The translations under genes and the position numbers were made by a program. The notes under the pieces are model-generated. The model was not told the origin of the DNA. It saw only the letters and a program-made list of their open reading frames with translations, and searched no databases. A DNA stretch of 64,000 nt from the NCBI RefSeq assembly GCF_036227265.1, contig NZ_CP109446.1, positions 5,214,001 through 5,278,000 of the forward strand, written 5' to 3'. Origin of the DNA: Streptomyces sp. NBC_01476 (GTDB lineage: Bacteria; Actinomycetota; Actinomycetes; Streptomycetales; Streptomycetaceae). Of the stretch, positions 5,929-52,126 are shown piece after piece (the first letter of the stretch is position 1; every line of letters starts with the position of its first letter).

Positions 5929-6096
5929 CGCGCCCCTTCGGGGCACGTCGTCCCCTGCGGTACGGGAGTTCGTGCCCCGTCAGGGGCGCGAGGAACTGCG
6001 CGAGCAACCGGCCACCGGGCGGGGGCCGGGGATGGTGCCCCGTGGGGCAGGTCGTGCCCCGTCAGGGGCGCTGGGGGCACCCCCGGCCGGTGGGGG
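5929..6096. repeat. Dispersed palindromic intergenic repeat (member 3)
   Basis: Modules CGCGCCCCTTCGGGGC, CCCCGTCAGGGGCGCGAGGA with ACTGCGCGAGCAAC, and CCCCGTCAGGGGCGCTGGGG. It lies immediately 3' of accA2 and continues toward the TetR promoter; several hairpins are possible. Confidence 0.85.
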
Positions 6097-6115
6097 GTGG
6101 GCGGGCGGTCGGGGG

Positions 6116-7876
6116 TCAGTCCTTGATTTCGCAGATGACCGCGCCGGAGGTGACGGACGTGCCGACGTCCGCGGTGAGCCCGATCACCGTGCCGGAGCGG
6201 TGCGCGTTGATCGGCTGTTCCATCTTCATCGCTTCGAGGACGACGATGAGGTCGCCCTCGGTGACCTGCTGGTTCTCCTCGACCGCGACCTTCACGATGG
6301 TGCCCTGCATCGGGGAGGCCAGCGCGTCACCCGACGCCGCCTTCGTGGCCTTCGACGCCGCCCGCCGTTTCGGCTTCGCACCGCCGGCCGCCGCGGTCCG
6401 CGCCAGGGTCATCCCCAGCGAGGCCGGCAGAGAGACTTCGAGGCGCTTCCCGCCGACCTCGACCACCACCGTCTCCCGACCCGGGACCTCGTCCTCATCC
6501 ACCGCGGGCCCCGCGAACGGCGCGATCGTGTTCACGAACTCCGTCTCGATCCACCGGGTATGAATCGTGAACGGCCCCCCGTCCCGGGGATTGAACGCCG
6601 GGTCGGTGACCACGGCGCGGTGGAAGGGAATCGCGGTGGCCATCCCCTCCACGGTGAACTCACCCAGCGCCCGCGCCGCACGCTGCAAGGCCTGCTCGCG
6701 GGTCGCACCGGTGATGATGAGCTTGGCCAGCAGGGAGTCCCACGCCGGCCCGATCACCGACCCTGACTCCACCCCGGCGTCCAGCCGCACCCCCGGCCCG
6801 GTGGGCGGCTGGAAGAGGGTCACGGTGCCGGGTGCGGGCAGGAAATTCCGCCCCGGGTCCTCACCGTTGATCCGGAACTCCAGGGAGTGGCCGCGCAGCG
6901 GCGGGTCGTCGTAGCCGAGGGCCTCGCCGTCGGCGATGCGGAACATCTCCCGCACCAGGTCGATACCCGAGACCTCCTCCGTCACCGGGTGTTCGACCTG
7001 GAGGCGGGTGTTGACCTCCAGGAACGAGATCGTGCCGTCCTGCCCGACGAGGAACTCACACGTGCCCGCGCCGACGTAGCCGGCCTCGCGGAGGATCGCC
7101 TTCGACGCCGCGTACAGCTGGGCGTTCTGGTCGTCGGAGAGCCAGGGTGCGGGGGCTTCTTCGACGAGTTTCTGGTGGCGGCGCTGCAGGGAGCAGTCGC
7201 GGGTGGAGACCACGACGACGTTGCCGTGGGTGTCGGCCAGGCACTGGGTCTCGACGTGGCGGGGGCGGTCGAGGTAACGCTCGACGAAGCACTCGCCGCG
7301 GCCGAACGCGGCCACCGCCTCCCGCACCGCGGAATCGTAGAGCTCGGGGACTTCTTCCAGGGTCCTGGCGACTTTGAGTCCGCGTCCGCCGCCGCCGAAG
7401 GCGGCTTTGATGGCGATGGGGAGGCCGTGTTCCCTGGCGAAGGCGACGACTTCGTCGGCGCCGGTGACGGGGTCGGGGGTGCCGGCGACCAGGGGTGCGC
7501 CGGCGCGCTGGGCGATGTGACGGGCCGCCACCTTGTCGCCGAGGTCGCGGATGGCCTGCGGCGGGGGGCCGATCCAGGTCAGGCCCGCGTCCAGGACCGC
7601 CTGGGCGAACTCGGCGTTCTCGGAGAGGAAGCCGTATCCGGGGTGGACCGCGTCCGCGCCGGACTCCGCGGCGGCGGTCAGGACCTTGCCGGCATCGAGG
7701 TAGCTGGTGGCAGGGGTGTCACCGCCCAGCGCGTACGCCTCGTCCGCGACACGGACATGCACCGCGTCCCGGTCGGGATCGGCGTAGACGGCCACGCTGG
7801 CGATCCCCGCGTCCCGGCAGGCACGGGCAACACGGACTGCGATTTCACCGCGGTTGGCGATGAGCACCTTACGCAC
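6116..7876 (-). CDS. accA2: Acyl-CoA carboxylase alpha chain: biotin carboxylase plus biotin carboxyl carrier
   Basis: 586-aa alpha subunit that carboxylates biotin with ATP and bicarbonate and carries it to the beta subunit, making malonyl- or methylmalonyl-CoA. Biotin carboxylase domain starts [15 protein letters not shown], with the ATP-grasp glycine loop GGGGRGLKV (161-169), the metal-binding segment [20 protein letters not shown], and [11 protein letters not shown]. The C-terminal carrier domain has EAMKMEQP with the biotinylated Lys near 551. GTG 7876 is chosen: GGGAG sits 8 nt upstream and the protein then begins exactly at the conserved [10 protein letters not shown]. The beta and epsilon subunit genes lie 2 kb upstream on the same strand, separated by a gene on the other strand. 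Confidence 0.95.
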
Positions 7877-8259
7877 GATGACTCCCTTCTTGAAACAAGC
7901 CGAGTTTAGGTACTGGCCACACTCGATGCCGAGGAGCCCCCGCACGTGAGCTTGCCCACACGAAGGGTGACCCATGGGCCTGAAATACCGGTGAAAGCCT
8001 GCTCAGTCCACGGTACGACCCGGCCGGGGCCGATGTCCCGCACTGCCCGGTGTGGGGCGGATCTCGGTTCGGATCGGGTCCCTCGTTCGGCGTTCTTTTG
8101 TGGAAACCCCACCAATAGACCGGGGAAAGTTTGCCGCCGCGACCCGCCGAACGAGTGGTGGCGCCGCGCCTCTTGTCCCGGGCTTTACCCGTGAGTAGCC
8201 TGCATGACGCGAAGTACCGGGGGTAACGGACCCCGCGGCGGGGACCGGAGGGGGAGCGC
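7877..8259. other. Intergenic region between divergent accA2 and a membrane-protein gene
   Basis: 383 bp with no convincing gene. It should hold the accA2 promoter (minus) and the promoter of the membrane protein (plus). No palindrome strong enough to name an operator was seen. Confidence 0.5.
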
Positions 8260-8712
8260 ATGCGCAGAGGGATAGCCATCGGCACGGTCGTGGCGCTGGT
8301 CCTCGAAGCTCTCACGATCGGCTTCGTCAACTGGGTGCTCGGCCTTGCCGTCCAGCACCAGAAGATGTCCCTCGCCGGGCTCGACACGAACGCGATGGCG
8401 GTCGGATCGTGGGTGGGCGGCGGGGTGTTCGGGCTCTTCCTGCTCGGCTGCGCGCTGCTGGTGGCCCGGATCGCCTGGCGCGACCGGATGACCGGGCGGT
8501 TGGCGCGGATCGTGCTCATCGCCTGCGCGGTGGTGCACGGAGTGGTGGGCGCGGCCGTGGTCGGCCTGGTCGGCTGGTGGGCGTTCGTGGTCCTGATGGT
8601 CATCCTCGGGCTGCTCGTCGCCACGCTGCTGCTGTACGCGCCGGAGGACCAGCGGGAGCCGGTGGAGGCCGCGCCGGGCCCCGGCGAGATCTCGCCACCG
8701 GCGACCGCGTGA
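8260..8712 (+). CDS. Small four-helix membrane protein, unknown function
   Basis: 150 aa. Hydrophobic stretches are visible at about 4-30, 46-70, 85-108 and 110-127, so four membrane spans are likely, followed by an acidic, proline-rich tail on one side of the membrane. The start ATG follows a strong GGAGGGGGAG ribosome site. No enzymatic motif is seen. It sits between accA2 and maf on the opposite strand; conserved position near the carboxylase genes in Streptomyces is from memory. I do not recognise a function. Confidence 0.7.
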   Translation: MRRGIAIGTVVALVLEALTIGFVNWVLGLAVQHQKMSLAGLDTNAMAVGSWVGGGVFGLFLLGCALLVARIAWRDRMTGRLARIVLIACAVVHGVVGAAVVGLVGWWAFVVLMVILGLLVATLLLYAPEDQREPVEAAPGPGEISPPATA

Positions 8713-8833
8713 CCGTCGGAACCGCCCGCACCCTCCAAACCGCCCGCACCCTCCGAGCCGGCTGAGCCGCCCCCACCGTCCGAACCTGCCGCCCTGCCCG
8801 AGCCGTCCGCGCCCCGCGGGACGCCCCGCACGG

Positions 8834-9430
8834 TCACGCCCACAGGTCGGTGACGCGGACGTCCAACTCGGCGAGCAGGCGGCGCAGCAGCGGCAGGGAG
8901 AGGCCGATGACGTTGCCGGGGTCGCCGTCCACGCCGTCGACGAAGGGGGCCGAGCGGCCGTCGAGGGTGAACGCGCCCGCCACATGGAGCGGTTCGCCGC
9001 TCGCCACGTAGGCGGCGATCTCCGCGTCGTCCGGCGTGCCGAACCGTACGGTGGTGGAGGCGGTCGCGGAGACCTGGCGGCCGGTGGCGGTGTTGATCAC
9101 GCAGTGGCCCGTCCGGAGGATCCCGTCGCGGCCGCGCATCGCCTGCCAGCGGGCGGTCGCCTCGGCGGCGTCCTTGGGCTTGCCGAAGGCCAGGCCGTCC
9201 AACTCCAGGACGGAGTCGCAGCCGACCACCAGTTCGCCGCCGACGAGTTGTCCGCTGCCGGCCACGGCCTTCGCCTTCGCCTCCGCCAGGACGCGGGCCA
9301 GGTCGCCGGGGGTGGGAGCGGTGATGGCCTCCTCGTCCACCCCGCTCACGACGACCTGCGGGTCGAAGCCGGCCTGCTTGAGCAGGGCCAGGCGGGCGGG
9401 GGAGGCGGAGGCGAGGATCAGCGTGGTCAC
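8834..9430 (-). CDS. maf: Maf-like nucleotide pyrophosphatase
   Basis: 198-aa house-cleaning pyrophosphatase that hydrolyses non-canonical or canonical nucleoside triphosphates. Family motifs: N-terminal [18 protein letters not shown], the [10 protein letters not shown] acidic loop, the GKPKD segment and the C-terminal GDPGNVIGL. The start is set at GTG 9430 ([11 protein letters not shown]), because a TACGAT box ends 6 nt upstream and the protein then begins at the conserved LILAS strand; the frame runs on upstream without family sequence. The pccB-pccE-small membrane gene series lies upstream on the same strand. Confidence 0.93.
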
Positions 9431-9436
9431 CGCCCT

Positions 9437-9442
9437 ATCGTA
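9437..9442 (-). promoter_or_regulatory. Candidate -10 box (TACGAT), leaderless start of maf
   Basis: TACGAT on the minus strand, 6 nt before GTG 9430, giving maf its own promoter inside the carboxylase gene series. Confidence 0.5.
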
Positions 9443-9574
9443 GGGACCCCGCGGCCTCCTCCGCCCGGCCCCTGCCCGGTCCCGCCCGGCCCCCCGCCGG
9501 CCCGCGCACACGGGCCCTGGCACCTCCCGGCCGGCGGGAGCGGAAGGCGCGGAAGGCGCGGACCGGTCACCGCG

Positions 9575-9709
9575 CTACGCGCGCCACGTGGCGATGGCCA
9601 TGACGAGGACCGCGGCCAGGGCGATGACGAGCATCGCCCGGCGGAGCTTCGTCTGGGCGCGGCGGATGTCGTCCGGGGGACCGGGGGGTTGATCGTCGGA
9701 CCAGAGCAT
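9575..9709 (-). CDS. 44-aa single-pass membrane protein, MmpB-like
   Basis: Reads MLWSDDQPPGPPDDIRRAQ, then TKLRRAMLVIALAAVLVMAI, ending ATWRA. A charged, proline-rich N-terminal 24 residues precede one transmembrane helix (about 26-41). The MLWSD start and the DxRxAQ segment resemble the small proteins annotated in Streptomyces as morphogenic membrane protein MmpB, which I recall lying beside this carboxylase locus; this identification is from memory. The gene lies between pccE and maf on the same strand (85 bp and 144 bp gaps). No clear ribosome site was found. Confidence 0.72.
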   Translation of the reverse strand: MLWSDDQPPGPPDDIRRAQTKLRRAMLVIALAAVLVMAIATWRA

Positions 9710-9794
9710 GGGTTCAAGCGTGCGCCCGGGCGGGGGCCCGCGCCTGAGTACGCGTACTCAGAAGCGGAACCCGCACCTCACCCGTACCAGTGGT

Positions 9795-10001
9795 TTACGT
9801 GGGCCACGCGGAGGTGCGCCAGGCGCCGGGGCCGGGCCGGGGAGTGCGGCGGGTGAGGGCGCGGGCGGGGTCGGACCAGGCGGCGGTGGTGCGGGGGGCG
9901 GCCTCGTCGGGCTCCACCGCGGCGATACGCGCCTGGACCAGGGCCACGACGGCGGCCAGTTCTTCGGGGGTGGGTCTGCCGCGCTCCACTTTGATCACCA
10001 T
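9795..10001 (-). CDS. pccE: Acyl-CoA carboxylase epsilon subunit
   Basis: 68 aa, the small actinobacterial subunit that binds between alpha and beta chains of acyl-CoA carboxylase and raises activity. It starts MVIKVERGRPTPEELAAVVA, the typical VxRGxPTxEELAAL pattern, and ends in a WSDPAR...PGPGAWRTSAWP segment characteristic of AccE/PccE proteins. The start is 14 bp beyond the pccB stop on the same strand, so the two are translated from one mRNA. The middle is Pro/Ala-rich and probably unstructured. Confidence 0.92.
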   Translation of the reverse strand: MVIKVERGRPTPEELAAVVALVQARIAAVEPDEAAPRTTAAWSDPARALTRRTPRPGPGAWRTSAWPT

Positions 10002-38240: not shown

Positions 38241-41200
38241 TCAGTGCCCGTCGCGCGGCGCCGGGGCGGTGAGCAGTTCCCGTGAGGAGCGGCGCGGTGT
38301 CATGCCGAGCTGCCACGCGTCCCAGGTGCCGCCCGGTGTGACCGAACCCCGCTCCAGCAGCAGCGCGTACGCCTCCGCGTACTCCTCCAGCTCCGGATCC
38401 CGCTCCGGATCCCGCTCCGGATCCCGCTCCGGATCCCGCGCCGGGTCGGCGGCGCCGAGCAGCGCGGTCAGCTCCTGCCGGGCCTGCCCGGTGCCCTCCT
38501 CGGTGAGCAGCGGCAGGATCGTGGCCCGCAGGAAGGCCGCCCAGTCCGCGCCCCGCCGGTCGCCCAGCCGGGTGAAGAGCCCGGCCGCCTCCTCCAGCAG
38601 GGTCAGCGCCTCCAGCAGCCGCCCGTTGCCCGCGTCGATGACCGCCAGCTCCACACAGGACCACGCCTCGCCGTGCTCCACCCCGATCCGGCGGAAGTCC
38701 TGCCGCGCGTCCTGCAGCAGCTGCCGGGCGAACCCGCTGTTGCGCAGATTGCCGGTACGGGCCGCCCGCTGGTCGCGGGTGACCCGCGCCGAGTGGTGCC
38801 GGGCGCAGGCCAGCCCGAAGACGTCCCGCATCCGGGAGAACATGCTCCGCGACCGCTCCAGCGTGCGCAGCGCCGCGTCGGTGTCACCGCTCTCCTCCAA
38901 CGCCTGCCCGAGGTAGTACAGCGTCCACGCCTCACCGCGGGCGTCCTCGCTCGCCCGGTGCCGCTGCAGCGCCTCGTCCAGGTCGCGGGCCGCGTCCCGG
39001 GCCTGCCCGCGCAGCAGCAGGGTCCGCGCCAGCTGGGTCGCGGTCCACGCGGTGCCGCGGCCGTCACGGGCCAGCGCGTACGCCTGCCCGGCCGCCCGCA
39101 GCTCCGCCTCCCCGTCGTCCAGCCGGCCCAGCAGCAGATACACCTGGCCCAGCTGGAGGTGCGCCCACGCCTCGCCCTGCACGCTCTCGTTCTCCCGGTG
39201 CAGCGCCAGCGACTCGTGCAGCAGCTCCAGCGCCTCACCGAGCCGGCCCATGTCCCGCAGCACCGCGCCGAGCGCGTGCAGCGTCCAGGCCCGGTCCTCG
39301 TCCAGCTCCGGCGCCCGCTGGATCTCCAGCGCTTCCCGCAGCTTCTGCTCCGCCTCCCGCAGATTGCCCTGGTGGTGCAGCGTGATGCCGAGGCTGTCCA
39401 GCGCGCGGGCCGCGCCCACCGGGTGCTGGGCCTCGAAGTACAGGTCCACCACCGAACTCAGCGTGGAGCGCGCCTTGTCGAGCTCGCCGAGCTGCCGGGC
39501 CGCGATGCCGGTACGCCACTGCACCGAGCGCACCAGCACCGAGCGGTCCTCGTCCGGGCCCTTGCGGCCGCCCGCGCCGGCCTGCTGCGCGTGCGCCAAC
39601 TCGCTGATCTCGCCCAGCCGGTAGAGGTCGCCGCGCAGCAGGCAGTAGTCGCACAGCGCGCCGAGCAGCGCCTGTACGGCCGTCTTGTCGACGCCCTCGG
39701 TCTCGCGCAGCGCGGCGGTGATGAAGCTGGACTCCTCGTCCAGCCAGCGCAGCGCCGACTCCAGCGAGGCGAATCCGTGCGACCCGAACCGCCCGGCGCG
39801 GGTCGAGGTCTTCCCCTCCACCAGCCGTATCACGGTGTTGGCGAGATCCGCGTAGGAGCGGATCAGCCGTTCGTGGGCGGCGGCCCGCTCCACCGGGTCC
39901 TCCTCGTCCAGCAGCCGCGCGCCGGCGAAGGCCCGTACCAGGTCGTGCGGGCGGTAGCGGTGGCCGCGGACGTGTGCCAGCAGGCCGGCGGCGGTGAGTT
40001 CGGCGAGCCGGCGGGCGGCCTCGCGCTCGTCGGTGGCGAGCAGTGCGGCGGCTGCCGCGGCGCCGAAGCTGGCCCGGCCGGCCAGCGCGAGGCGGCGCAG
40101 CAGCCGGCGGTTGGGCTCGGCCAGGTCGTGGTAGCGCAGCGCGAGAATCCGGTCCAGCGGGTCCTGCGGGCCGAACATCTCGATGTCGGCGGCGAGCCGG
40201 GCGGCGCCGCCGTGCTCGGCCAGGGCGGTCCCGGCGATCCGCAGCGGCAGCGGGAGGCCGGTGCACAGGGTACGGAGCCGGTCCGCGTCGGCGTCGGTGG
40301 GACGCGGGGTGTCGGCGGGCCCGTCGCCCTTCCGGGTGCGGCCGGCCGCGGTCTCGGCCAGCAACTCCCGTATCTCGCCGGTTTCCAGCGCGCCCACCTC
40401 CAGGAAGTGCACGGCGGCGCCCGGCAGGTGCAGGTCGAACGGCTCGCGGGCGGTGACCAGCACCAGCGACTCGGAGCGCTCCGGCACCAGATCCCGGATC
40501 TGCCCGGCGTCCGTCGCGTCGTCGAGCACGATCACCACGGGTACGCCGGTGAGGTGCTGGCGGTACTGCTCGGTGAGGCGGCGCAGGTGCTGCTCGTGAT
40601 TCTGCCGCTCCCGGAAGAGGAGTTGGTCGCGCGGGGCGCCCAGCCGGTTCAGCAGGTGCAGCAGCGCGTCGCGGACCGGCAGCGGGGCCCGGCCGTCGCC
40701 GGCGCCGCGCAGGTCCACCACGCACGCGCCCCTGAACTGGTCGCGCAACTGCTGTGCGGCGCGCACCGCGAGGGTGCTGCGGCCGCTGCCGGGCGGGCCG
40801 TGCAGCACAACGACCGTGGCCCGCACCTCCGTTGACGCCCTGGCCTGGTGCACCCACTGGGTGATCCGCGCCATGTGCCGGCGCCGGCCAGTGAACGGGC
40901 CCTCGGCAGCCGGGAGATGGGCGAAGGACTGGTCGAGCAGGGCGCGGGTGCGGGCCGCGGCGCTGCGGTCGCCGCCGCCCGGGCGGCGGGGCGGTGGGAT
41001 ACGGGGCTGCGCGGGCTTCCTCACGGGGGCGGTCTCGGCCCGTTCCTCGTCGAGGAACGGGCGGATGCCGCGCCGTTCGACCGCGGCGAGCCACAGCAGC
41101 CGGGACTGCTCGGGCCCGCCGGGGGCGCCGACGCCGCCGCCGTGCCGGTCGCGGCCGGCCGCGAGGGTCGCGACCCCGGCGGCGCCGACCGCCACGCCGG

Positions 41201-41507
41201 CCACCAGGGCGGGGCCTGCCGCCAGGCCGAACCCCAGGTCCACGCCGAAGGCCACGACGGCGGCGACCCCGGCGGCCACGCCGGGTGCCTGACCCCGGCG
41301 GGCGGGGGGCCGCGCGGCCAGTGCGGCGCGGTAGGCGGCGTACTCCTCGGCCGCCGTGCCGGCGATCTCCTCCAGATGCTCCCGGCCCCGCTTGAGCAGC
41401 GCCTGCGCTTGTGCGTCCTGCCCGGCCAGCTGGGCCACCACCCGTTCCAGCAGCCGCTCCACCTCACCGCGGTCCGCGGCCCGCAATCCGCCCCGACCCT
41501 CCGTCAC
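38241..41507 (-). CDS. STAND ATPase (NB-ARC-like) with TPR repeats, membrane-associated
   Basis: 1088 aa. An N-terminal helical part is followed by an Ala/Gly/Val-rich hydrophobic region (about 75-117, two possible spans). The NTPase domain has Walker A GPPGSGRST (about 237-245), Walker B VVIVLDDATD (about 324-333), and a winged-helix part LALRYHDLAEPNRRLLRRLA. From about 640 onward there are about ten TPR units (e.g. GAARALDSLGITLHHQGN, GEAWTLYYLGQALEESGD). The C-terminus holds four RDPE units. It is built like AfsR without the SARP DNA-binding domain, so it is a signalling or sensor ATPase rather than a direct activator. GTG 41507 is chosen for its GGGGAGGG ribosome site; ATG 41606 is an alternative. 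Confidence 0.87.
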   Translation of the reverse strand: MTEGRGGLRAADRGEVERLLERVVAQLAGQDAQAQALLKRGREHLEEIAGTAAEEYAAYRAALAARPPARRGQAPGVAAGVAAVVAFGVDLGFGLAAGPALVAGVAVGAAGVATLAAGRDRHGGGVGAPGGPEQSRLLWLAAVERRGIRPFLDEERAETAPVRKPAQPRIPPPRRPGGGDRSAAARTRALLDQSFAHLPAAEGPFTGRRRHMARITQWVHQARASTEVRATVVVLHGPPGSGRSTLAVRAAQQLRDQFRGACVVDLRGAGDGRAPLPVRDALLHLLNRLGAPRDQLLFRERQNHEQHLRRLTEQYRQHLTGVPVVIVLDDATDAGQIRDLVPERSESLVLVTAREPFDLHLPGAAVHFLEVGALETGEIRELLAETAAGRTRKGDGPADTPRPTDADADRLRTLCTGLPLPLRIAGTALAEHGGAARLAADIEMFGPQDPLDRILALRYHDLAEPNRRLLRRLALAGRASFGAAAAAALLATDEREAARRLAELTAAGLLAHVRGHRYRPHDLVRAFAGARLLDEEDPVERAAAHERLIRSYADLANTVIRLVEGKTSTRAGRFGSHGFASLESALRWLDEESSFITAALRETEGVDKTAVQALLGALCDYCLLRGDLYRLGEISELAHAQQAGAGGRKGPDEDRSVLVRSVQWRTGIAARQLGELDKARSTLSSVVDLYFEAQHPVGAARALDSLGITLHHQGNLREAEQKLREALEIQRAPELDEDRAWTLHALGAVLRDMGRLGEALELLHESLALHRENESVQGEAWAHLQLGQVYLLLGRLDDGEAELRAAGQAYALARDGRGTAWTATQLARTLLLRGQARDAARDLDEALQRHRASEDARGEAWTLYYLGQALEESGDTDAALRTLERSRSMFSRMRDVFGLACARHHSARVTRDQRAARTGNLRNSGFARQLLQDARQDFRRIGVEHGEAWSCVELAVIDAGNGRLLEALTLLEEAAGLFTRLGDRRGADWAAFLRATILPLLTEEGTGQARQELTALLGAADPARDPERDPERDPERDPELEEYAEAYALLLERGSVTPGGTWDAWQLGMTPRRSSRELLTAPAPRDGH
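38391..38438 (-). repeat. Four perfect 12-bp repeats inside the STAND gene (RDPE units)
   Basis: CTCCGGATCCCG repeated four times without change, in frame, encoding the RDPE series before LEEYAEAY. A recent in-frame expansion, probably variable between strains. Confidence 0.9.
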
Positions 41508-41599
41508 ACGCCCTCCCCGTCCCTCCGCCACAACCCATGGGTGGGTTTGGTGCCCGCCCCGACCCCCCATCAAGCCCCCACCGCCGGAAGTGTCCCCAC

Positions 41600-41725
41600 C
41601 GGACATGGTTGCCCCGCAGGGGCGCGGGGAACTGCGCGCTCAGCCCCCACCGGCGGGTGTGTGCCCACCGGGCGTGGTTGCCCCGTAGGGGCGCGAGGAA
41701 CTGCGCGAGCAACCCCCACCGGCCC
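41600..41725. repeat. Dispersed palindromic intergenic repeat (member 6)
   Basis: Two units with GTTGCCCCGCAGGGGCGCGG or GTTGCCCCGTAGGGGCGCGA followed by GGAACTGCGCG, joined by a CCCCCACCGGCGGGTGTGTG linker. Lies between the ECF42 stop and the STAND gene start. Confidence 0.85.
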
Positions 41726-43588: not shown

Positions 43589-44155
43589 TCAGATCGAGGT
43601 GAGGTCGATCTCCACCGGGAAGGGCGCGGCGGCCTTGATCACACCGGTGAACACGTCCGCGTCCCGGTAGTGACCGCTCGCCGGATCGAGCACATACGTG
43701 TAAACGGCACACGTCGCCACGGCGATCTGTTCGACCCGCCAGTAGAAGGGGATCCCGGCCCGGGCGTACTGGTCGGTCTTCACCACCCGGTCGGTGGTCT
43801 CCGACCCGGGGGACACGACCTCTGCCACCAGCAGTACGTGCTCAGGACGCATCGGGTGGAGGTCGATCCGGTCCGCGCGGTAGACGACGACATCGGGGCG
43901 CCGGTTGGTGAGGGGGACGTCCTGCAGCCGGACGTCGAAGTCGGTGTCGGCGTTCCACCCCGGACCCGCGGCGGCGTCCAGGCCGTTGGCCAGGATGCGG
44001 GCGAGCCTGTTGTGCCGAATGGAGGCGCTGGGGCTCACCACGACCATCCCGTCCACTACCTCGATGCCGGCGCACTGCTCTTCCGACCACGAGTCGTACT
44101 GCTCTGCGGTGATCCGTTCGTGCATCCAGGCGGGCGCGACCATCTCGGCGCTCAT
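43589..44155 (-). CDS. Uma2-family putative PD-(D/E)XK nuclease, intact copy
   Basis: 188 aa. Uma2 domain (DUF820): RITAEQYDSWSEEQCAGIEV, PDVVVYRADRID with the metal-binding Asp, VAEVVSPGSETTDRVVKTDQY with Glu and Lys of the nuclease core, and YARAGIPFYWRVEQ. Family members are abundant in Streptomyces and their function is unproven. The ATG has GGGAGG at ideal distance. Codons 1-143 are nearly identical to the pseudogene at 49343-49908; the last 45 codons differ. It marks the left end of the duplicated block that borders the defence-like cassette. Confidence 0.9.
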   Translation of the reverse strand: MSAEMVAPAWMHERITAEQYDSWSEEQCAGIEVVDGMVVVSPSASIRHNRLARILANGLDAAAGPGWNADTDFDVRLQDVPLTNRRPDVVVYRADRIDLHPMRPEHVLLVAEVVSPGSETTDRVVKTDQYARAGIPFYWRVEQIAVATCAVYTYVLDPASGHYRDADVFTGVIKAAAPFPVEIDLTSI

Positions 44156-44369
44156 ACGAACCTCCCGGAGTCCTGTCACGGAGCGCACGGCGGCGCCGAC
44201 CTCAGCGTACCGGCCGGCGAATCGCCAGGAGATCTCCGCCGAGCGGGCGGGCGCATGCGCACAACCCGTGGACTGGTGGCCGTGGGGGGGAGGAGGCGTT
44301 CGGGGAGGCGCGCAAGCGCGGGGTGCCGGTGCTGCTGAGCGTGGGGTACAGCAGTTGTCACTGGTGCCA
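43727..44369. repeat. Direct repeat, left copy (Uma2 5' part plus DUF255 fragment)
   Basis: Part A (43727-44253) matches 49480-50006 at a constant offset of 5753; I see only two mismatches in the Uma2 coding part. Part B (44254-44369) matches 50114-50229 with one missing C and one extra G. The 107 bp between A and B in the right copy (50007-50113) are deleted here. Same orientation in both copies. Confidence 0.93.
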
Positions 44370-44373
44370 GTGA
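44254..44373 (+). pseudogene. Remnant of DUF255 gene start
   Basis: Corresponds to codons of [18 protein letters not shown] through YSSCHWC of the intact gene at 50072. The start codon and first codons are deleted, a lost C and an added G shift and then restore the frame, and the sequence stops at TGA just after HWCQ. Not functional; a scar of the duplication that surrounds the cassette. Confidence 0.9.
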
Positions 44374-44890
44374 ACTCGCGAACCCAGTAGTCCGCGGCCC
44401 TCGTGTCTGTCTGAGGCGCGGGCGACACATTCAGGAGGCGTTGGCTACCTGGAGGTGGCAATACTGAGCCCAAGCGGACCGCGAGTTGACGGATGTGGCA
44501 AGCCGTCCGACACCAGCCGCATCAAAGGGGCGGAGCTGTTGCTGGCCGTAGGTGACGTCGACCGTGCCCTTTCCAGGAGGCTCAAAGGTCGGGCCAGGCC
44601 GCGGCCTGGGGAAAGCTGATCGGCCAGCTGCCCTTCCTGGCGCTCAGGCCCACAGCCGCGCGGAGCACCTCTGCCGCCCAGCGGGAGGATTGTGGACGCT
44701 GACGCCTCGCCAGATAGCGGGAGCTCTGGGGTGGATGTCGGACATCTCCGCAGATGGAAGAGCGAAACCCGGGTGCCGAAGTTCCACCGTCTGAGAGTAT
44801 AGCCGCGGCTAAGCTGGCGCGCCGCTGGAGCGGTGCTCGCTGAGGTCGGCAGGGCCTCGCCAGACATGGTTTGACCGAACGGGAGCCCAG
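44374..44890. other. Gene-free leader region of the AAA/TOPRIM/DUF262 cassette
   Basis: 517 bp without a convincing gene, less GC-biased than its surroundings. A plus-strand frame near 44441-44610 has plausible codons but is interrupted by stops and may be gene debris. The cassette promoter should lie in its last 150 bp; CTGAGAGTATAGCCG near 44790 is the most AT-rich candidate -10 area. Confidence 0.5.
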
Positions 44891-46153
44891 GTGTCCTTGG
44901 AACGGTTCTCGCTTGAGAACTATCGCTGCTTCAGGGAGAGACAGGAGGTGGAGCTTGGAAAGATCACCGTGGTGCTGGGCCGGAACAATTCTGGCAAGAG
45001 TGCGGTCGTGCGAGCACTCCCGCTCCTTTCCCTCGGTATCCGCGGCGACTCCCCTTACCCTCTGGATCTGGACCTGATCCAAGGCTTCACTCCTTCGTTC
45101 GCCGATCTGATCCACGGCTCGTCACCCCATGGGCACATTCGCCTGGGAGCGTCGATCGGGCGCGAGGACGGCGAGACCGTCAGCGCCACCGCCGAGGTCC
45201 AGAACATCGCCAACCAGGGAATTCAGCTGGTCTCCTCGGTACAGATCTCCTGCGGGACGGAGGTCGCGGACCTCTCCTGGATGCCCGGCGTCGACGCCTA
45301 CTCCTCGGGGAAGCGCGCGTATCTTGTCGACGGCCAAGAGGCCAAAGTCGGATTTCGCGGGCTGCTGCCCGATCCGGCCGACTGGCCGGACTCCGTTGGC
45401 GGTGTCAGCGGCGTCACTGGGCTCATTCGGGAAGGCCTCGACGAGATCCGGTATCTGGGTCCGTTCAGGAAGAGCCCGGAGCGCTTCTTCCGGTCTCCGG
45501 CCAGAACCCTGGGCAGCGTCGGCTATCGGGGCGAGAGGGCGCTCGGCATGCTCGCCGCGGACGAGGTGTACGGGCGTGGTCTGATCGGCCGTGAGGTGAA
45601 CACCCTGCTGGAAAGCATCCTGCCCTGGTGGCGCCTCGAAGTCACCGACGTCGGCTCCGGGATGTACATCCCCAAGTTGCGTTCCCTGCGCGATCCCGAT
45701 CTCGTCGTCCACATCGATGACGTCGGCACCGGTGTGGTCCAGTTCCTGCCGATAGTGATCCAGCGGGCCGCGGACCGCGTGGAACCGCCCGCCGGGCCGG
45801 TGATCGAGATCGTGGAGGAGCCCGAACTCCATCTCCACCCTTCGGCGCACGCCGCGATCGCCGATCTCTACGTCGACGCCGTGCAGGAGTCGCAGGTGCG
45901 CTTCCTGGTGGAGACGCACAGCGAGAACTTCCTCCTCAGGCTGCGCCGGCGGGTCGCGGAGCGGAAGCTGGCGCCGGAGGACGTGAAGATCTACTTCGTT
46001 GAGCAGGCCGAGGGGGCCGCCACCCTGCGGAAGATCGAGGTGGACGCCCTCGGCAACCTCGACTACTGGCCGCGGGGGGTCTTCGCGGAGGACTTCGAGG
46101 AGGCGCGCGCCCTCGCGGACGCGCAGGCGAATCGGATCGACGATGCGCGTTGA
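44891..46153 (+). CDS. AAA family ATPase with DUF3696-like C-terminus (OLD/AriA-like)
   Basis: 420-aa ABC-like ATPase of the OLD/RecF type. Walker A GRNNSGKS (30-37), LGPFRKSPERFF (189-200, the LGPxR motif of this family), signature-like DDVGTGVVQFLP (276-287), Walker B IEIVEEPELHLHP (305-317), H-switch ETHSENFLLRLRRR (341-354). The tail VDALGNLDYWPRGVFAEDF (384-402) fits DUF3696. There is no TOPRIM domain in this chain; the next gene appears to supply it, as AriB does for AriA in PARIS. GTG 44891 follows GGGAG. Overlaps the next gene by 11 nt. Presumed sensor/motor of an anti-phage complex; this role is inference. Confidence 0.88.
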   Translation: MSLERFSLENYRCFRERQEVELGKITVVLGRNNSGKSAVVRALPLLSLGIRGDSPYPLDLDLIQGFTPSFADLIHGSSPHGHIRLGASIGREDGETVSATAEVQNIANQGIQLVSSVQISCGTEVADLSWMPGVDAYSSGKRAYLVDGQEAKVGFRGLLPDPADWPDSVGGVSGVTGLIREGLDEIRYLGPFRKSPERFFRSPARTLGSVGYRGERALGMLAADEVYGRGLIGREVNTLLESILPWWRLEVTDVGSGMYIPKLRSLRDPDLVVHIDDVGTGVVQFLPIVIQRAADRVEPPAGPVIEIVEEPELHLHPSAHAAIADLYVDAVQESQVRFLVETHSENFLLRLRRRVAERKLAPEDVKIYFVEQAEGAATLRKIEVDALGNLDYWPRGVFAEDFEEARALADAQANRIDDAR

Positions 46154-47168
46154 GATTCCCGTCGACCTGCTGAAGGGCCGTCAGGGCGACGAGAACGCAG
46201 AGCTCATATTGAAGCTGATCGCGTTCTTCAGGGAGGCGCGGCACGAGTGGGAGATCTCCCCGCGTGATGTGGACGCCGTCCATTCGTTCCTGGAGCGTCA
46301 CCTCCCGGTCCTGGCGCAGAGCTACCTGCTGCTCGCGCAGAAGGCGAGCATGGCGCAGGCCTGGGCGCCGCACGAGGGGACCGCGGGCGTGGTCAGGGTG
46401 GCCGGCGAGACGCTCACGGAGGACATCCGTGACCTGGAGCGGCCGGCCGTGCTGGTCGTGGAGAACGCGATCTATGATTGGCAAATGATCGAGGCGCTCG
46501 CGCGCCTGCTCGGCTGCGAGGATGTCATCGACGCTAAGGCGGGGAGTCGCCTCGGTGTGTACAACGGAGGTGGCAAGGACGGGGCGACCGCGCACGCGGT
46601 CGACCAGGCCGCGCAGTTCTCCCGTACCAAGCGTGTGGCCCTCGTCATCGACAGCGACAGCTTCCACCCCACGGACCGGACCGGCAATCACGAGAAGGCC
46701 GAAGCCGCGGCCCGCGAAGGCGTGAGTGCGCACGTCCTCAGCTTCCGGGAGATGGAGAATTACATTCCCAATCGGGTCCTGGCCCGGCAGCCGAAGAAGA
46801 CCGTCGGAATGTCCTCTATGGCCAAGCGCCTGGAGTCCCTCAAGACCTTCTCGCCCGAGCAGCGAGCCCACTTCGACATGAAGCACGGATTCAAGGGGAA
46901 GCCGCAGAAGGGCGCCGACCAGAAGGGGCGCCACTCCAAGAAGGCGGGGACCACCTACGTCATCCCGCCGCGCCACGGTGATCTGTACGACGAAGTGGCG
47001 GAGCAGGATCTCATCACCCTCCAGGAGGGATTCGGAACGGACTTGCCGGGTCTGTTCCTGCAAGAGGTGATGCGCGGCGGCATATCGGAGCGGGACCTAG
47101 ACGGCCTGGGCCCCGGAGCGAAACAGGAATTGCGATCGATGTTCGAAACGATTCGGGGCGTGATCTGA
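46143..47168 (+). CDS. TOPRIM/DUF4435-like protein, putative nuclease partner of the ATPase
   Basis: 341 aa. After about 100 helical residues comes a TOPRIM-like core: the Glu strand PAVLVVENAIYDWQMIEAL (101-119; E107), a GGGKDG turn (142-147), the Asp motif RVALVIDSDSFHP (164-176; D170, D172), and FREMENYIPN (201-210), the RxxENY element I associate with DUF4435/AriB proteins. The C-terminal third has a Lys/Gly-rich segment HGFKGKPQKGADQKGRHSKK that could bind nucleic acid. ATG 46143 lies inside the end of the ATPase gene, so translation is coupled. ATA, TTG and CAA codons are commoner than in neighbouring genes. Nuclease activity is inferred, not shown. Confidence 0.72.
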   Translation: MRVEIPVDLLKGRQGDENAELILKLIAFFREARHEWEISPRDVDAVHSFLERHLPVLAQSYLLLAQKASMAQAWAPHEGTAGVVRVAGETLTEDIRDLERPAVLVVENAIYDWQMIEALARLLGCEDVIDAKAGSRLGVYNGGGKDGATAHAVDQAAQFSRTKRVALVIDSDSFHPTDRTGNHEKAEAAAREGVSAHVLSFREMENYIPNRVLARQPKKTVGMSSMAKRLESLKTFSPEQRAHFDMKHGFKGKPQKGADQKGRHSKKAGTTYVIPPRHGDLYDEVAEQDLITLQEGFGTDLPGLFLQEVMRGGISERDLDGLGPGAKQELRSMFETIRGVI

Positions 47169-47170
47169 GC

Positions 47171-48844
47171 ATGGGAGACATCGAGGTGGTCAAGGATATC
47201 TCCGTGGTACCGGAGGTCCACTTCCTGGAGCAGGTCCTGGAGCGGATCGCGCAGGGCGAGCTGCGGGTGCCGAAGTTCCAGCGCCCGTTCCTGTGGCGCC
47301 CCGAGCAGATGCTCCAGCTCTTCGACAGCATGGAGCGCGGCTACCCGATGGGCAGCCTGCTCATCTGGGAGACCACCATGCCGCTCGAAAGCCTCGACAC
47401 CATCGGTGGGCGCAGGATCCCGCCGGCACCGGAAGGGGCGAAGATCGCCTACGTCCTGGACGGCCACCAGCGGCTCTCGACGCTCTTCGGCGTCCTCCAC
47501 CGCTCGGCCGACGCCCCGCGGTCCGCGCGCCAGGAGGACTGGATGTGGTGGGTCTACCGGCCGCTCGTCCGGTCGGAACACGACGGCGTGCGCTACCGAC
47601 ACCAGAAGAGCGGCGAGCCGGTGCCCAGCCACTTCCTGCCTATGCGGTCCGTACTGGGGACCCTGGACTTTCTCGAATACGCACGGACGCTGTCCAGCGT
47701 CTCCCACTCCCGCGAGGAGGCCGACCGCCTTACCAAGGAGAGCGAGCGCATCGCGACGCGGGTGAAGAACTACAAGGTCTCCGTGGTGCGTATGGAGGGC
47801 GGCACTCTCCAGCAGGCCATCGAAGTCTTCTCCAGGATCAACAGCAGCGGCCAGAAGATGCGTCCCGACCAGATGGTCTCCGCACTGACCTACGGGACCA
47901 TCGGCTCGGAGACGCTCAGCGACAAGATGGAGGAGATCAAGGGGCGGATCGCCGCTTCGGGCTTCGGAGAAATCCCGATCATGACGATCTTTCAGACCGT
48001 CCTCGCGCTGTCCGGCGAGGAGGATGTATATGGGGACACCTCCTGGGAGACGATGGCCCGCAAGGTCCAGGGTCAGCTCACGACCGCGGTCGAGGACACC
48101 GACCTGATCCTCCAGCAGGTGGTCGAGTTCCTGCGGAAGGAGGTCCGGGTCCCGCTGGCTCGCCTGGTTCCCTACAACATCCAGATCATGCTGCTCGCCG
48201 TCTTCTTCCACTTCTCCGACAAGGTCGAAACGGAGCAGCGGGTCAAGCTCCGGCACTGGTTCTGGACCACGTCCCTGGCGGGCACCTTCGCCGGGTCCAC
48301 CACCACCCAGGTCCGGAAGTTCATCACGGAGATGAAGGCCTTCGCCCAGGGCAAGGGTGGGCTCAGCTACGCCGCTGAGCGGGCCCGTTCCTTCCCCGAA
48401 CGCTTCGACTTGCGCAGCGCGCGCGTGCGCGCCTACCTCCTCTGGGACCTACAGACGTTCCCGGACCGGAAGAACTTCGACGGCGGCACCGCCAACGTGC
48501 TGGAACAGCTGGCGACGACGCACAGCGAGACCTATCGACACGTCATCACCCAAAGCGGGGTCCCCGGGGCTTCCAGTCCCGCCAACCGGATCGTCATGAC
48601 GACGCCGCCGGGTGTGTCGATCCGGCAGGCGCTCGTCAGGCTCGCGGAGGACGGGCGGACCGACATCCTGGACTCGCACGGAGTCAGCCTTGCGTCCATC
48701 GAGCATCTCAAGGCCGACGACTTCACCGAGTTCATTCTCGCCCGGCAGCACGAACTGGCGGCGCGGGAGCGGCAGTTCATCGAGAGCCTGGGTATCAAGT
48801 CGGCCGACAAGGAGGTCGGCGAGACCGACATCGACACCGAGTGA
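47171..48844 (+). CDS. DUF262 family protein (GmrS-like)
   Basis: 557 aa. The DUF262 domain at the N-terminus has VPKFQRPFLW (33-42), LLIWE (63-67) and the NTPase/nuclease motif DGHQRLSTL (97-105; a variant of DGQQR), then EVFSRINSSGQKMRPDQ, the second family motif. DUF262 occurs in type IV restriction (GmrS), SspE and BrxU; these often have a DUF1524 HNH partner, but no HNH motif is seen in this C-terminal half. Starts 2 bp after the TOPRIM-like gene, so the three genes form one tight operon. A direct DNA-defence role is inferred from the family and context. Confidence 0.9.
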   Translation: MGDIEVVKDISVVPEVHFLEQVLERIAQGELRVPKFQRPFLWRPEQMLQLFDSMERGYPMGSLLIWETTMPLESLDTIGGRRIPPAPEGAKIAYVLDGHQRLSTLFGVLHRSADAPRSARQEDWMWWVYRPLVRSEHDGVRYRHQKSGEPVPSHFLPMRSVLGTLDFLEYARTLSSVSHSREEADRLTKESERIATRVKNYKVSVVRMEGGTLQQAIEVFSRINSSGQKMRPDQMVSALTYGTIGSETLSDKMEEIKGRIAASGFGEIPIMTIFQTVLALSGEEDVYGDTSWETMARKVQGQLTTAVEDTDLILQQVVEFLRKEVRVPLARLVPYNIQIMLLAVFFHFSDKVETEQRVKLRHWFWTTSLAGTFAGSTTTQVRKFITEMKAFAQGKGGLSYAAERARSFPERFDLRSARVRAYLLWDLQTFPDRKNFDGGTANVLEQLATTHSETYRHVITQSGVPGASSPANRIVMTTPPGVSIRQALVRLAEDGRTDILDSHGVSLASIEHLKADDFTEFILARQHELAARERQFIESLGIKSADKEVGETDIDTE

Positions 48845-49342
48845 GGGGCTGCGAGTCCAGGCTTGTGTAGCCTCGAAGGCGCAACGCGGCTTTCCTGCCC
48901 TGGAGCGGCGAGCATGGAGGTGACCACATACCTGAGCCCTGCTCCAACCGACATGGCTGCGCGGGATGCCTCTCCATTGTCCCGCACAGCCAGGATCATC
49001 ACACGAGCTTCTCCGCTCGACTCGTGAGAGTCGGCCTACCTTTCCGTTCCCTCCTGTATCGCCGCCGACGGTGAAGTCAGCCCATTAGTGTTGATGAACC
49101 GAAACTGGATACCAGGACTTGGCTCGCTTTTTTGGACGGCTGCCCTGTTGGCGCGGCCGTCCGCCCACGTGCCCTTGAGTAGTTCTTGACCGGGCGCGGC
49201 TGAACGATCGTGTGCGAGCTGGAGTCGCATCCGCACGTGGTGCATCTGGTTCGTAGCCGGAGAATTTCCTGAAGAGTCCGCGAAACACCGTGAAGCGGGT
49301 GCGGATGGTCAAGCGTCGATAGCGGGGCGGCTTCTCGGTACC
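48845..49342. other. Gene-free tail of the cassette
   Basis: 498 bp with lower GC than the flanks and no supported gene. It has a short T6 run followed by GGACGGC...GCCGTCC near 49127-49170. It ends where the divergent 3' end of the Uma2 pseudogene begins. Confidence 0.5.
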
Positions 49343-49908
49343 TTACAAGAGCCCGAGATCGACCGTGATGGAGAAAGGTGCTGTGGCCTTCACCGTGCCG
49401 GTGAACATCTCGCCGTCACTGTAAGTCTTGGTGGCGGGGTCGAGGACGTACGTATAGACGATCGGGACACGGTGGCGGCCTGTTCGACCCGCCAGTAGAA
49501 GGGGATCCCGGCCCGGGCGTACTGGTCGGTCTTCACCACCCGGTCGGTGGTCTCTGACCCGGGGGACACGACCTCTGCCACCAGCAGTACGTGCTCAGGA
49601 CGCATCGGGTGGAGGTCGATCCGGTCCGCGCGGTAGACGACGACATCGGGGCGCCGGTTGGTGAGGGGGACGTCCTGCGGCCGGACGTCGAAGTCGGTGT
49701 CGGCGTTCCACCCCGGACCCGCGGCGGCGTCCAGGCCGTTGGCCAGGATGCGGGCGAGCCTGTTGTGCCGAATGGAGGCGCTGGGGCTCACCACGACCAT
49801 CCCGTCCACTACCTCGATGCCGGCGCACTGCTCTTCCGACCACGAGTCGTACTGCTCTGCGGTGATCCGTTCGTGCATCCAGGCGGGCGCGACCATCTCG
49901 GCGCTCAT
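49343..49908 (-). pseudogene. Uma2-family gene, frameshifted and mosaic second copy
   Basis: Codons 1-143 nearly equal the intact gene at 43589-44155 (one Leu/Pro change in QDVP). After RVEQ the sequence departs: a one-base deletion near 49465-49479 breaks the frame. In the shifted frame it still reads IVYTYVLDPATKTYSDGEMF, then TGTVKATAPFSITVDLGLL and TAA, a different Uma2 C-terminus. So the 3' end came from another paralogue and later lost a base. The unshifted frame runs on as unrelated sequence to 49390. Confidence 0.9.
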
Positions 49909-50071
49909 ACGAACCTCCCGGAGTCCTGTCACGGAGCGCACGGCGGCGCCGACCTCAGCGTACCGGCCGGCGAATCGCCAGGAGATCTCCGCCGAGCGGG
50001 CGGGCGGTGATTCATTGGCTGGTGGGGCAGGGGTGAAGGAACCGGGGGGCGGTACGTGAGAAAGTGGCGGC

Positions 50072-52126
<2,055 letters not shown>

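Follow-up and report, generated by a model that had tools for sequence, protein, structure and literature searches.

The window analysed here is a stretch of 64,000 nucleotides (nt) from Streptomyces sp. NBC_01476 (contig NZ_CP109446.1, positions 5,214,001 to 5,278,000 of the forward strand). Within it, upstream of a gene that we take to be yyaL, lie three closely spaced genes, here called A, B, and C, which together form a complete copy of the catalogued phage-defence candidate PDC-M55, for which a defence function is predicted. The genes, all open reading frames (ORFs) and with lengths in amino acids (aa), are as follows.

44891-46153, plus strand: gene A (PDC-M55A), GTG start, 420 aa; ABC/OLD-type ATPase with C-terminal DUF3696
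46143-47168, plus strand: gene B (PDC-M55B), ATG start, 341 aa; predicted TOPRIM-fold nuclease
47171-48844, plus strand: gene C (PDC-M55C), ATG start, 557 aa; DUF262 NTPase domain and BrxU-like C-terminal region

A preliminary description of the stretch, made from its letters and ORFs, had reported the tight packing of these genes, and both ORFs and sequence bear it out: A and B overlap by 11 nt (46143-46153), and 2 bp (47169-47170) separate B from C. It had also proposed that the system was undescribed, while naming an existing catalogue entry as one of the things that would count against it; the proposal has to be withdrawn because PADLOC-DB 2.0.0 (2023) already contains models of all three proteins, which they match nearly end to end (A to PDC-M55A, E = 3.9e-162; B to PDC-M55B, 3.8e-98; C to PDC-M55C, 2.4e-244). 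According to PMC12988326, the PDCs came out of a "guilt-by-embedding" survey as putative candidates for defence, the majority of them untested; the source of the survey is reportedly a 2024 preprint by Payne et al. Since the models exist, and neither the name PDC-M55 nor activity data for it were found in the literature searched, PDC-M55 is a known candidate whose name is not tied to an activity.

A search with B, in which the best 7,999 candidates were scored, found at least 51 proteins, with named sources chiefly in Streptomyces and also in Kitasatospora, Nocardiopsis, and Nonomuraea. From the B alignment we located 15 genome loci, and the co-occurrence on which the preliminary description had staked its proposal is seen throughout: A, B, and C are adjacent, in the same order and on one strand in 15 of 15. 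Because the order is always kept, the 11-nt A/B overlap persists in 11 of the 15 (judged by match position), and the ratio of nonsynonymous to synonymous substitution rates (dN/dS) of A, B, and C is 0.09-0.25 against loci L006, L008, L009, L010, and L011, showing purifying selection, the operon is not a chance assembly. Some copies are altered: in L007 a masked stretch breaks into C, which is shortened to its DUF262 part in L012 (Streptomonospora) and L014 (Nocardiopsis), at about 241 and 256 aa, and both A and C are in pieces in L018. By eye, a pyruvate-dehydrogenase-like gene stands near both short-C loci, and an ORF resembling a tyrosine integrase (L013, 5377-6546) lies a few kb upstream of another distant copy. 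PDC-M55 is patchy, since only 2 of 150 relatives matched PDC-M55B, one being the genome of the window itself and the other giving a weak, partial match. The genome of the window also carries, at about 4.466 Mb (L089, 7851-9473), a second C-like DUF262 gene (phmmer E = 2.8e-38 in L001), adjoining genes that by eye resemble type I restriction-modification.

The three proteins and their relation to named systems

Protein A carries the motifs GRNNSGKS (Walker A), EEPELHLHP, and ETHS and matches AAA_15 (E = 6.7e-22) and DUF3696 (5.7e-8) in Pfam, and no TOPRIM match was found in the same scan, as expected from the earlier reading of A as an ATPase with OLD-type motifs and no TOPRIM. After PDC-M55A, its next PADLOC matches are HEC-03B (4.7e-43) and Menshen NsnB (1.2e-42, residues 3-402); the AriA model also matches A (6.4e-24), far below PDC-M55A and probably through the common AAA_15 domain.

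Protein B is a predicted TOPRIM-fold nuclease. The residues singled out from its sequence alone (E107, D170, D172, and the RxxENY motif, here REMENY at 202-207) are present. E107, D170, D172, R202, E203, E205, N206, and Y207 show no variation across the 24 rows aligned (the window and 23 of the 51 homologues). The best structural matches of the predicted model are TOPRIM domains of OLD proteins, and this model, together with the conserved Glu and DxD, fits the fold that had been suggested; Foldseek alone was not significant, with nothing at E <= 0.001 against the PDB and viral libraries, and the B profile had no meaningful match among PDB sequences. A likeness to DUF4435, also suggested, did not hold up: no Pfam or NCBIfam family, DUF4435 included, matched B (scanned without its first Met) at E <= 1. 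Among PADLOC models only PDC-M55B matched B at that threshold, and none of the at least three NsnC models in the library did.

Protein C matches GmrSD_N (DUF262; E = 4.2e-23) and contains the motifs FQRPFLW and DGHQR noted earlier, the latter unchanged in all 30 rows of an alignment that joins the window to 29 of the 120 homologues listed. It had been described as lacking a visible HNH motif, and indeed DHIYP is not in C, and no DUF1524 match was found in Pfam at E <= 1; the nearest motif, picked by eye, is YRHVI, whose H is present in 26 of 30 rows and replaced by Q or R in the other 4. PADLOC matches of C besides PDC-M55C are HEC-05 (3.7e-20) and NsnA (2.8e-9 over residues 8-243). C looks like a nuclease-dead BrxU-like protein.

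Between PDC-M55 and the set in the window we found no difference, and the PADLOC library gives no mechanism for it; the present analysis adds to the entry the assignment of B as TOPRIM and of C as BrxU-like, together with the site of insertion in yyaL. Judged by membership tests, the operon belongs under none of the names Menshen, PARIS, Gabija, and GmrSD. PARIS, which is triggered by a phage anti-restriction protein, likewise has its ATPase and TOPRIM in two separate proteins, and the PARIS-like division of labour seen in the preliminary description is supported. However, B has no AriB or DUF4435 sequence match, and the window set has an additional DUF262 gene. Because the TOPRIM nuclease of PARIS, AriB, cleaves tRNA once AriA has let it go (PMC12409363), a PARIS-like pair with a BrxU-like component is the closest functional analogy. 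Gabija and OLD proteins share the ATPase motifs of A and the TOPRIM fold of B, but there the two are fused in one protein, whereas here they are split, and the window cassette has no helicase gene. C resembles BrxU along its chain and shares DUF262 (LFDS, DGxQR) with GmrSD, BrxU, and SspE, but lacks the DHIYP nuclease motif. The matches to HEC-03 and HEC-05 are far weaker than those to the PDC-M55 models.

We think it probable that this complete PDC-M55 copy, carried on a small yyaL cassette, works with A restraining B, C as sensor, and B as nuclease effector. In such a system, A, an ABC-type ATPase, would bind and restrain B as AriA does AriB in PARIS, and C, an NTPase of BrxU/GmrSD type that lacks the customary HNH motif, would sense phage DNA, probably modified or replicating. 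An NTP-driven change of C would release or license B, and B, as a metal-dependent TOPRIM nuclease, would cut host or phage nucleic acid, either tRNA or DNA, so that the infection stops and the cell probably dies with it. What the analysis shows directly is the gene set and its conservation under purifying selection, the fold matches of the models, the conserved acidic residues, the absence of DHIYP from C, and the geometry of the insertion; defence itself, the roles of B as effector and C as sensor, the A-B complex, the substrate, and cell death are inferred. PDC-M55 would thereby gain a mechanism open to testing, in which an ATPase and a TOPRIM protein paired as in PARIS are joined by an apparently nuclease-dead BrxU-like sensor; if true, this would exemplify clearly how a restriction enzyme can become a regulator.

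A rather unlikely alternative is a split type IV restriction system, in which C recognises modified phage DNA, A and B form a two-piece OLD nuclease that degrades it, and the cell survives. It draws on the likeness of C to BrxU, which cuts modified DNA, and on the likeness of A and B together to one OLD protein cut in two, the TOPRIM-bearing OLD proteins that best match B being described as DNA nucleases in PMC10568477.

The statement that no named system has exactly these three parts stands narrowly: Menshen, also a three-gene set, has components related to A and C, and its NsnC differs from B by sequence. That the operon is a Menshen variant, in which a TOPRIM protein has replaced NsnC while trigger and logic stay as in Menshen, seems to us quite improbable. 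The genuine NsnA-NsnB-NsnC locus L037 confirms that NsnB is an AAA/DUF3696 protein like A and NsnA a DUF262 protein weakly like C (NsnC has no Pfam match), and the NsnB and NsnA scores given above speak for kinship. However, the HEC models score equally well or better on both proteins; B is matched by PDC-M55B alone, although this is a sequence comparison and a fold shared with NsnC is possible; the DUF262 gene comes first in L037 and last in the window; and C, at 557 aa against the 385 positions of the NsnA model, is longer and BrxU-like.

The insertion site in yyaL

The site at which the operon sits is a new result, and a less expected one than the operon itself. Direct repeats surround the operon, one of 300 nt with 99% identity and one of 85 nt with 100%. 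They are formed by a partial yyaL 5' end and a Uma2-type gene upstream and by the intact yyaL and a second Uma2-type copy downstream. The features are as follows.

43592-44155, minus strand: presumed Uma2-type gene, left copy
44254-44369, plus strand: duplicated part of the 5' coding end of yyaL, with the region around the start codon missing
44359-44369, plus strand: left junction core, CACTGGTGCCA, at which the partial yyaL copy ends
44370-50229, plus strand: proposed inserted cassette of 5,860 bp, comprising the element left end, A-B-C, the second Uma2-type copy, and a replacement yyaL 5' end
49355-49908, minus strand: presumed Uma2-type gene, right copy, its 3' part in a different frame from the left copy
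50072-52126, plus strand: intact yyaL-like gene, the insertion target (thioredoxin/DUF255 family)
50219-50229, plus strand: right junction core, CACTGGTGCCA, within intact yyaL

We propose that the operon is a cassette inserted at the 11-nt core, at about codon 52 of yyaL. GC content is 65.4% for 44371-49380 against 72.0% for the window, and the left junction (44358-44373) reads TCACTGG-TG-CCAGTGA, a dyad. When junctions are aligned, partial copies stop at the same base, CACTGGTGYCA being followed by the element, whereas in intact yyaL CACTGGTGYCA is followed by YGT. Each cassette may bring a replacement yyaL 5' end, which would keep the host gene whole.

The same arrangement recurs elsewhere. 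In the seven Streptomyces loci whose B is at least 69% identical (L005-L011), the operon is directly upstream of yyaL in every case, and an upstream partial copy is present in four. The yyaL match is almost full-length in six of them and limited to residues 1-274 in L007. The operon is also at yyaL in L069 (complete) and L078 (frames broken), and a Uma2-type gene is beside yyaL in several other loci. No yyaL was found in the fetched flanks of the eight distant loci L012-L019.

The yyaL 5' part itself has a match in every genome examined, 35 of the genus and 200 of the family, and residues 1-55 of YyaL match more than once in 48 of the 200 Streptomycetaceae genomes, some of these being second full genes or decayed pieces. 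We surveyed partial copies in yyaL regions from 19 of those 48 genomes and in loci from other searches, which gave 43 rows and, after removal of one split row and one twice-fetched locus, 41 distinct copies. In 27 the break falls precisely at the core, in 5 at a core that differs by one mismatch, and in 9 elsewhere; none of the 32 core-ended copies has yyaL sequence continuing past the core. Four loci (L064, L066, L067, and L068) had been chosen by a core-containing pattern, and their six partial copies all end at the core; excluding these six, 26 of 35 copies do so. Element ends with different cargo have a common consensus near RTGAAcTcgCacAaCCaGGTAGTcCtGacctgg. Copies may also be stacked: L007, L064, L066, and L071 have two partial copies each, and L069 has three core-ended ones in tandem (one with one mismatch) together with intact yyaL. 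Interchangeable cargo, tandem copies, and a common element end characterise the hot-spot loci, which are the window, L005-L007, L010, L046, L047, L064, and L066-L088. No paper on insertion at a yyaL/DUF255 site was found in the literature searched with yyaL/DUF255, thioredoxin, and site terms. With one core and one kind of element end, the site offers a simple sequence handle for finding actinomycete defence modules.

At the right junctions of L071, L072, and L073, the downstream yyaL has about 20 extra nt at the core that contain TAG or TAA, and the host gene there may therefore be interrupted. Matches to the yyaL 5' end also occur in twelve plasmid records, 4 with an annotated thioredoxin-domain gene at that place and the others without a feature. 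The phage record MT839133, which ends within yyaL, was considered as an excised circular element and rejected because its ORFs look chromosomal (NusA/RimP by eye).

Cargo and mobilisation of the yyaL cassettes

Rough gene calls by a GC-bias caller gave 175 ORFs in the yyaL arrays, copies of A-B-C and of the Uma2-type gene included. Seven defence-looking cargo ORFs were scanned, with three Menshen proteins as reference, and 5 of the 7 match a defence model or Pfam family. For instance, a Gabija pair (GajA, E = 1.6e-244; GajB, 1.7e-209) lies between a partial and the intact yyaL copy in L070 (G632:C4:5162500-5181000) at 5973-9916, and the partial copy just to its left, one of the nine with a break elsewhere, reads CATTGGTTATC and not the usual core. 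An NsnA-like DUF262 gene with a partner of about 200 aa and of no known family occurs at L067 7606-9349 and L070 2945-4649, a pair that is possibly a separate two-gene system. The cargo of L073 includes a cytosine methylase, and L074 and L075 combine a PNP-superfamily effector gene with genes for proteins of about 650 and 200 aa, parts of which set recur in L076 and L077; the protein of about 650 aa had no PADLOC or Pfam match. By eye, the elements in L072, L075, and L081 hold many genes without an obvious defence role.

Such cassettes, like the lack of phage-activity data, the mostly housekeeping-like neighbours (by eye) of the eight distant loci, and an archaeal OLD-family ATPase with a cell-cycle role described in PMC12796447, could suit a non-defence reading of the operon as a chromosome-maintenance or stress module, or as a toxin-antitoxin-like selfish set kept by its cassette, but we regard this as very improbable given the patchy presence of PDC-M55, the defence-type genes at the same yyaL site in other genomes, and the origin of all three matched models in a defence-candidate library. 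The defence role put forward in the preliminary description is probable.

As to movement, no recombinase was seen by eye among the ORFs of the window cassette. PF07508 and PF00589, the only recombinase or transposase families covered by the search, were run in 10 genomes. In seven (G000, G592, G632, G565, G039, G563, and G586) neither model had a match within the fetched array, and in G019 and G052 neither had one in the stretch separating the yyaL pieces. In G050 a truncated PF00589 match (C42:25594-25926) falls immediately within the left junction, and a gene that by eye is serine-recombinase-like and decayed lies outside it. ORFs of L069 resemble an IS transposase by eye. A parallel is known from genomic islands at the 5' end of dusA, which likewise use a single site near the start of a conserved protein-coding gene and carry varied cargo, but those islands are associated with a putative integrase located there (PMC4482086), whereas a tyrosine or large serine recombinase was not matched inside the seven yyaL arrays. 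Tentatively, the operon may belong as a module to a family of small cassettes, most of which have no recombinase themselves. Such cassettes would insert serially at the single yyaL core of Streptomycetaceae, with the recombinase supplied in trans, and so assemble arrays, integron-like, in which immune genes are interchangeable (PDC-M55, Gabija, DUF262 pairs, a methylase, and PNP-effector sets). Which recombinase moves them is a directly testable question.

Outside the cassette, on the minus strand of the window (38241-41606), a 1121-aa ORF resembles by eye an NTPase-TPR regulator.

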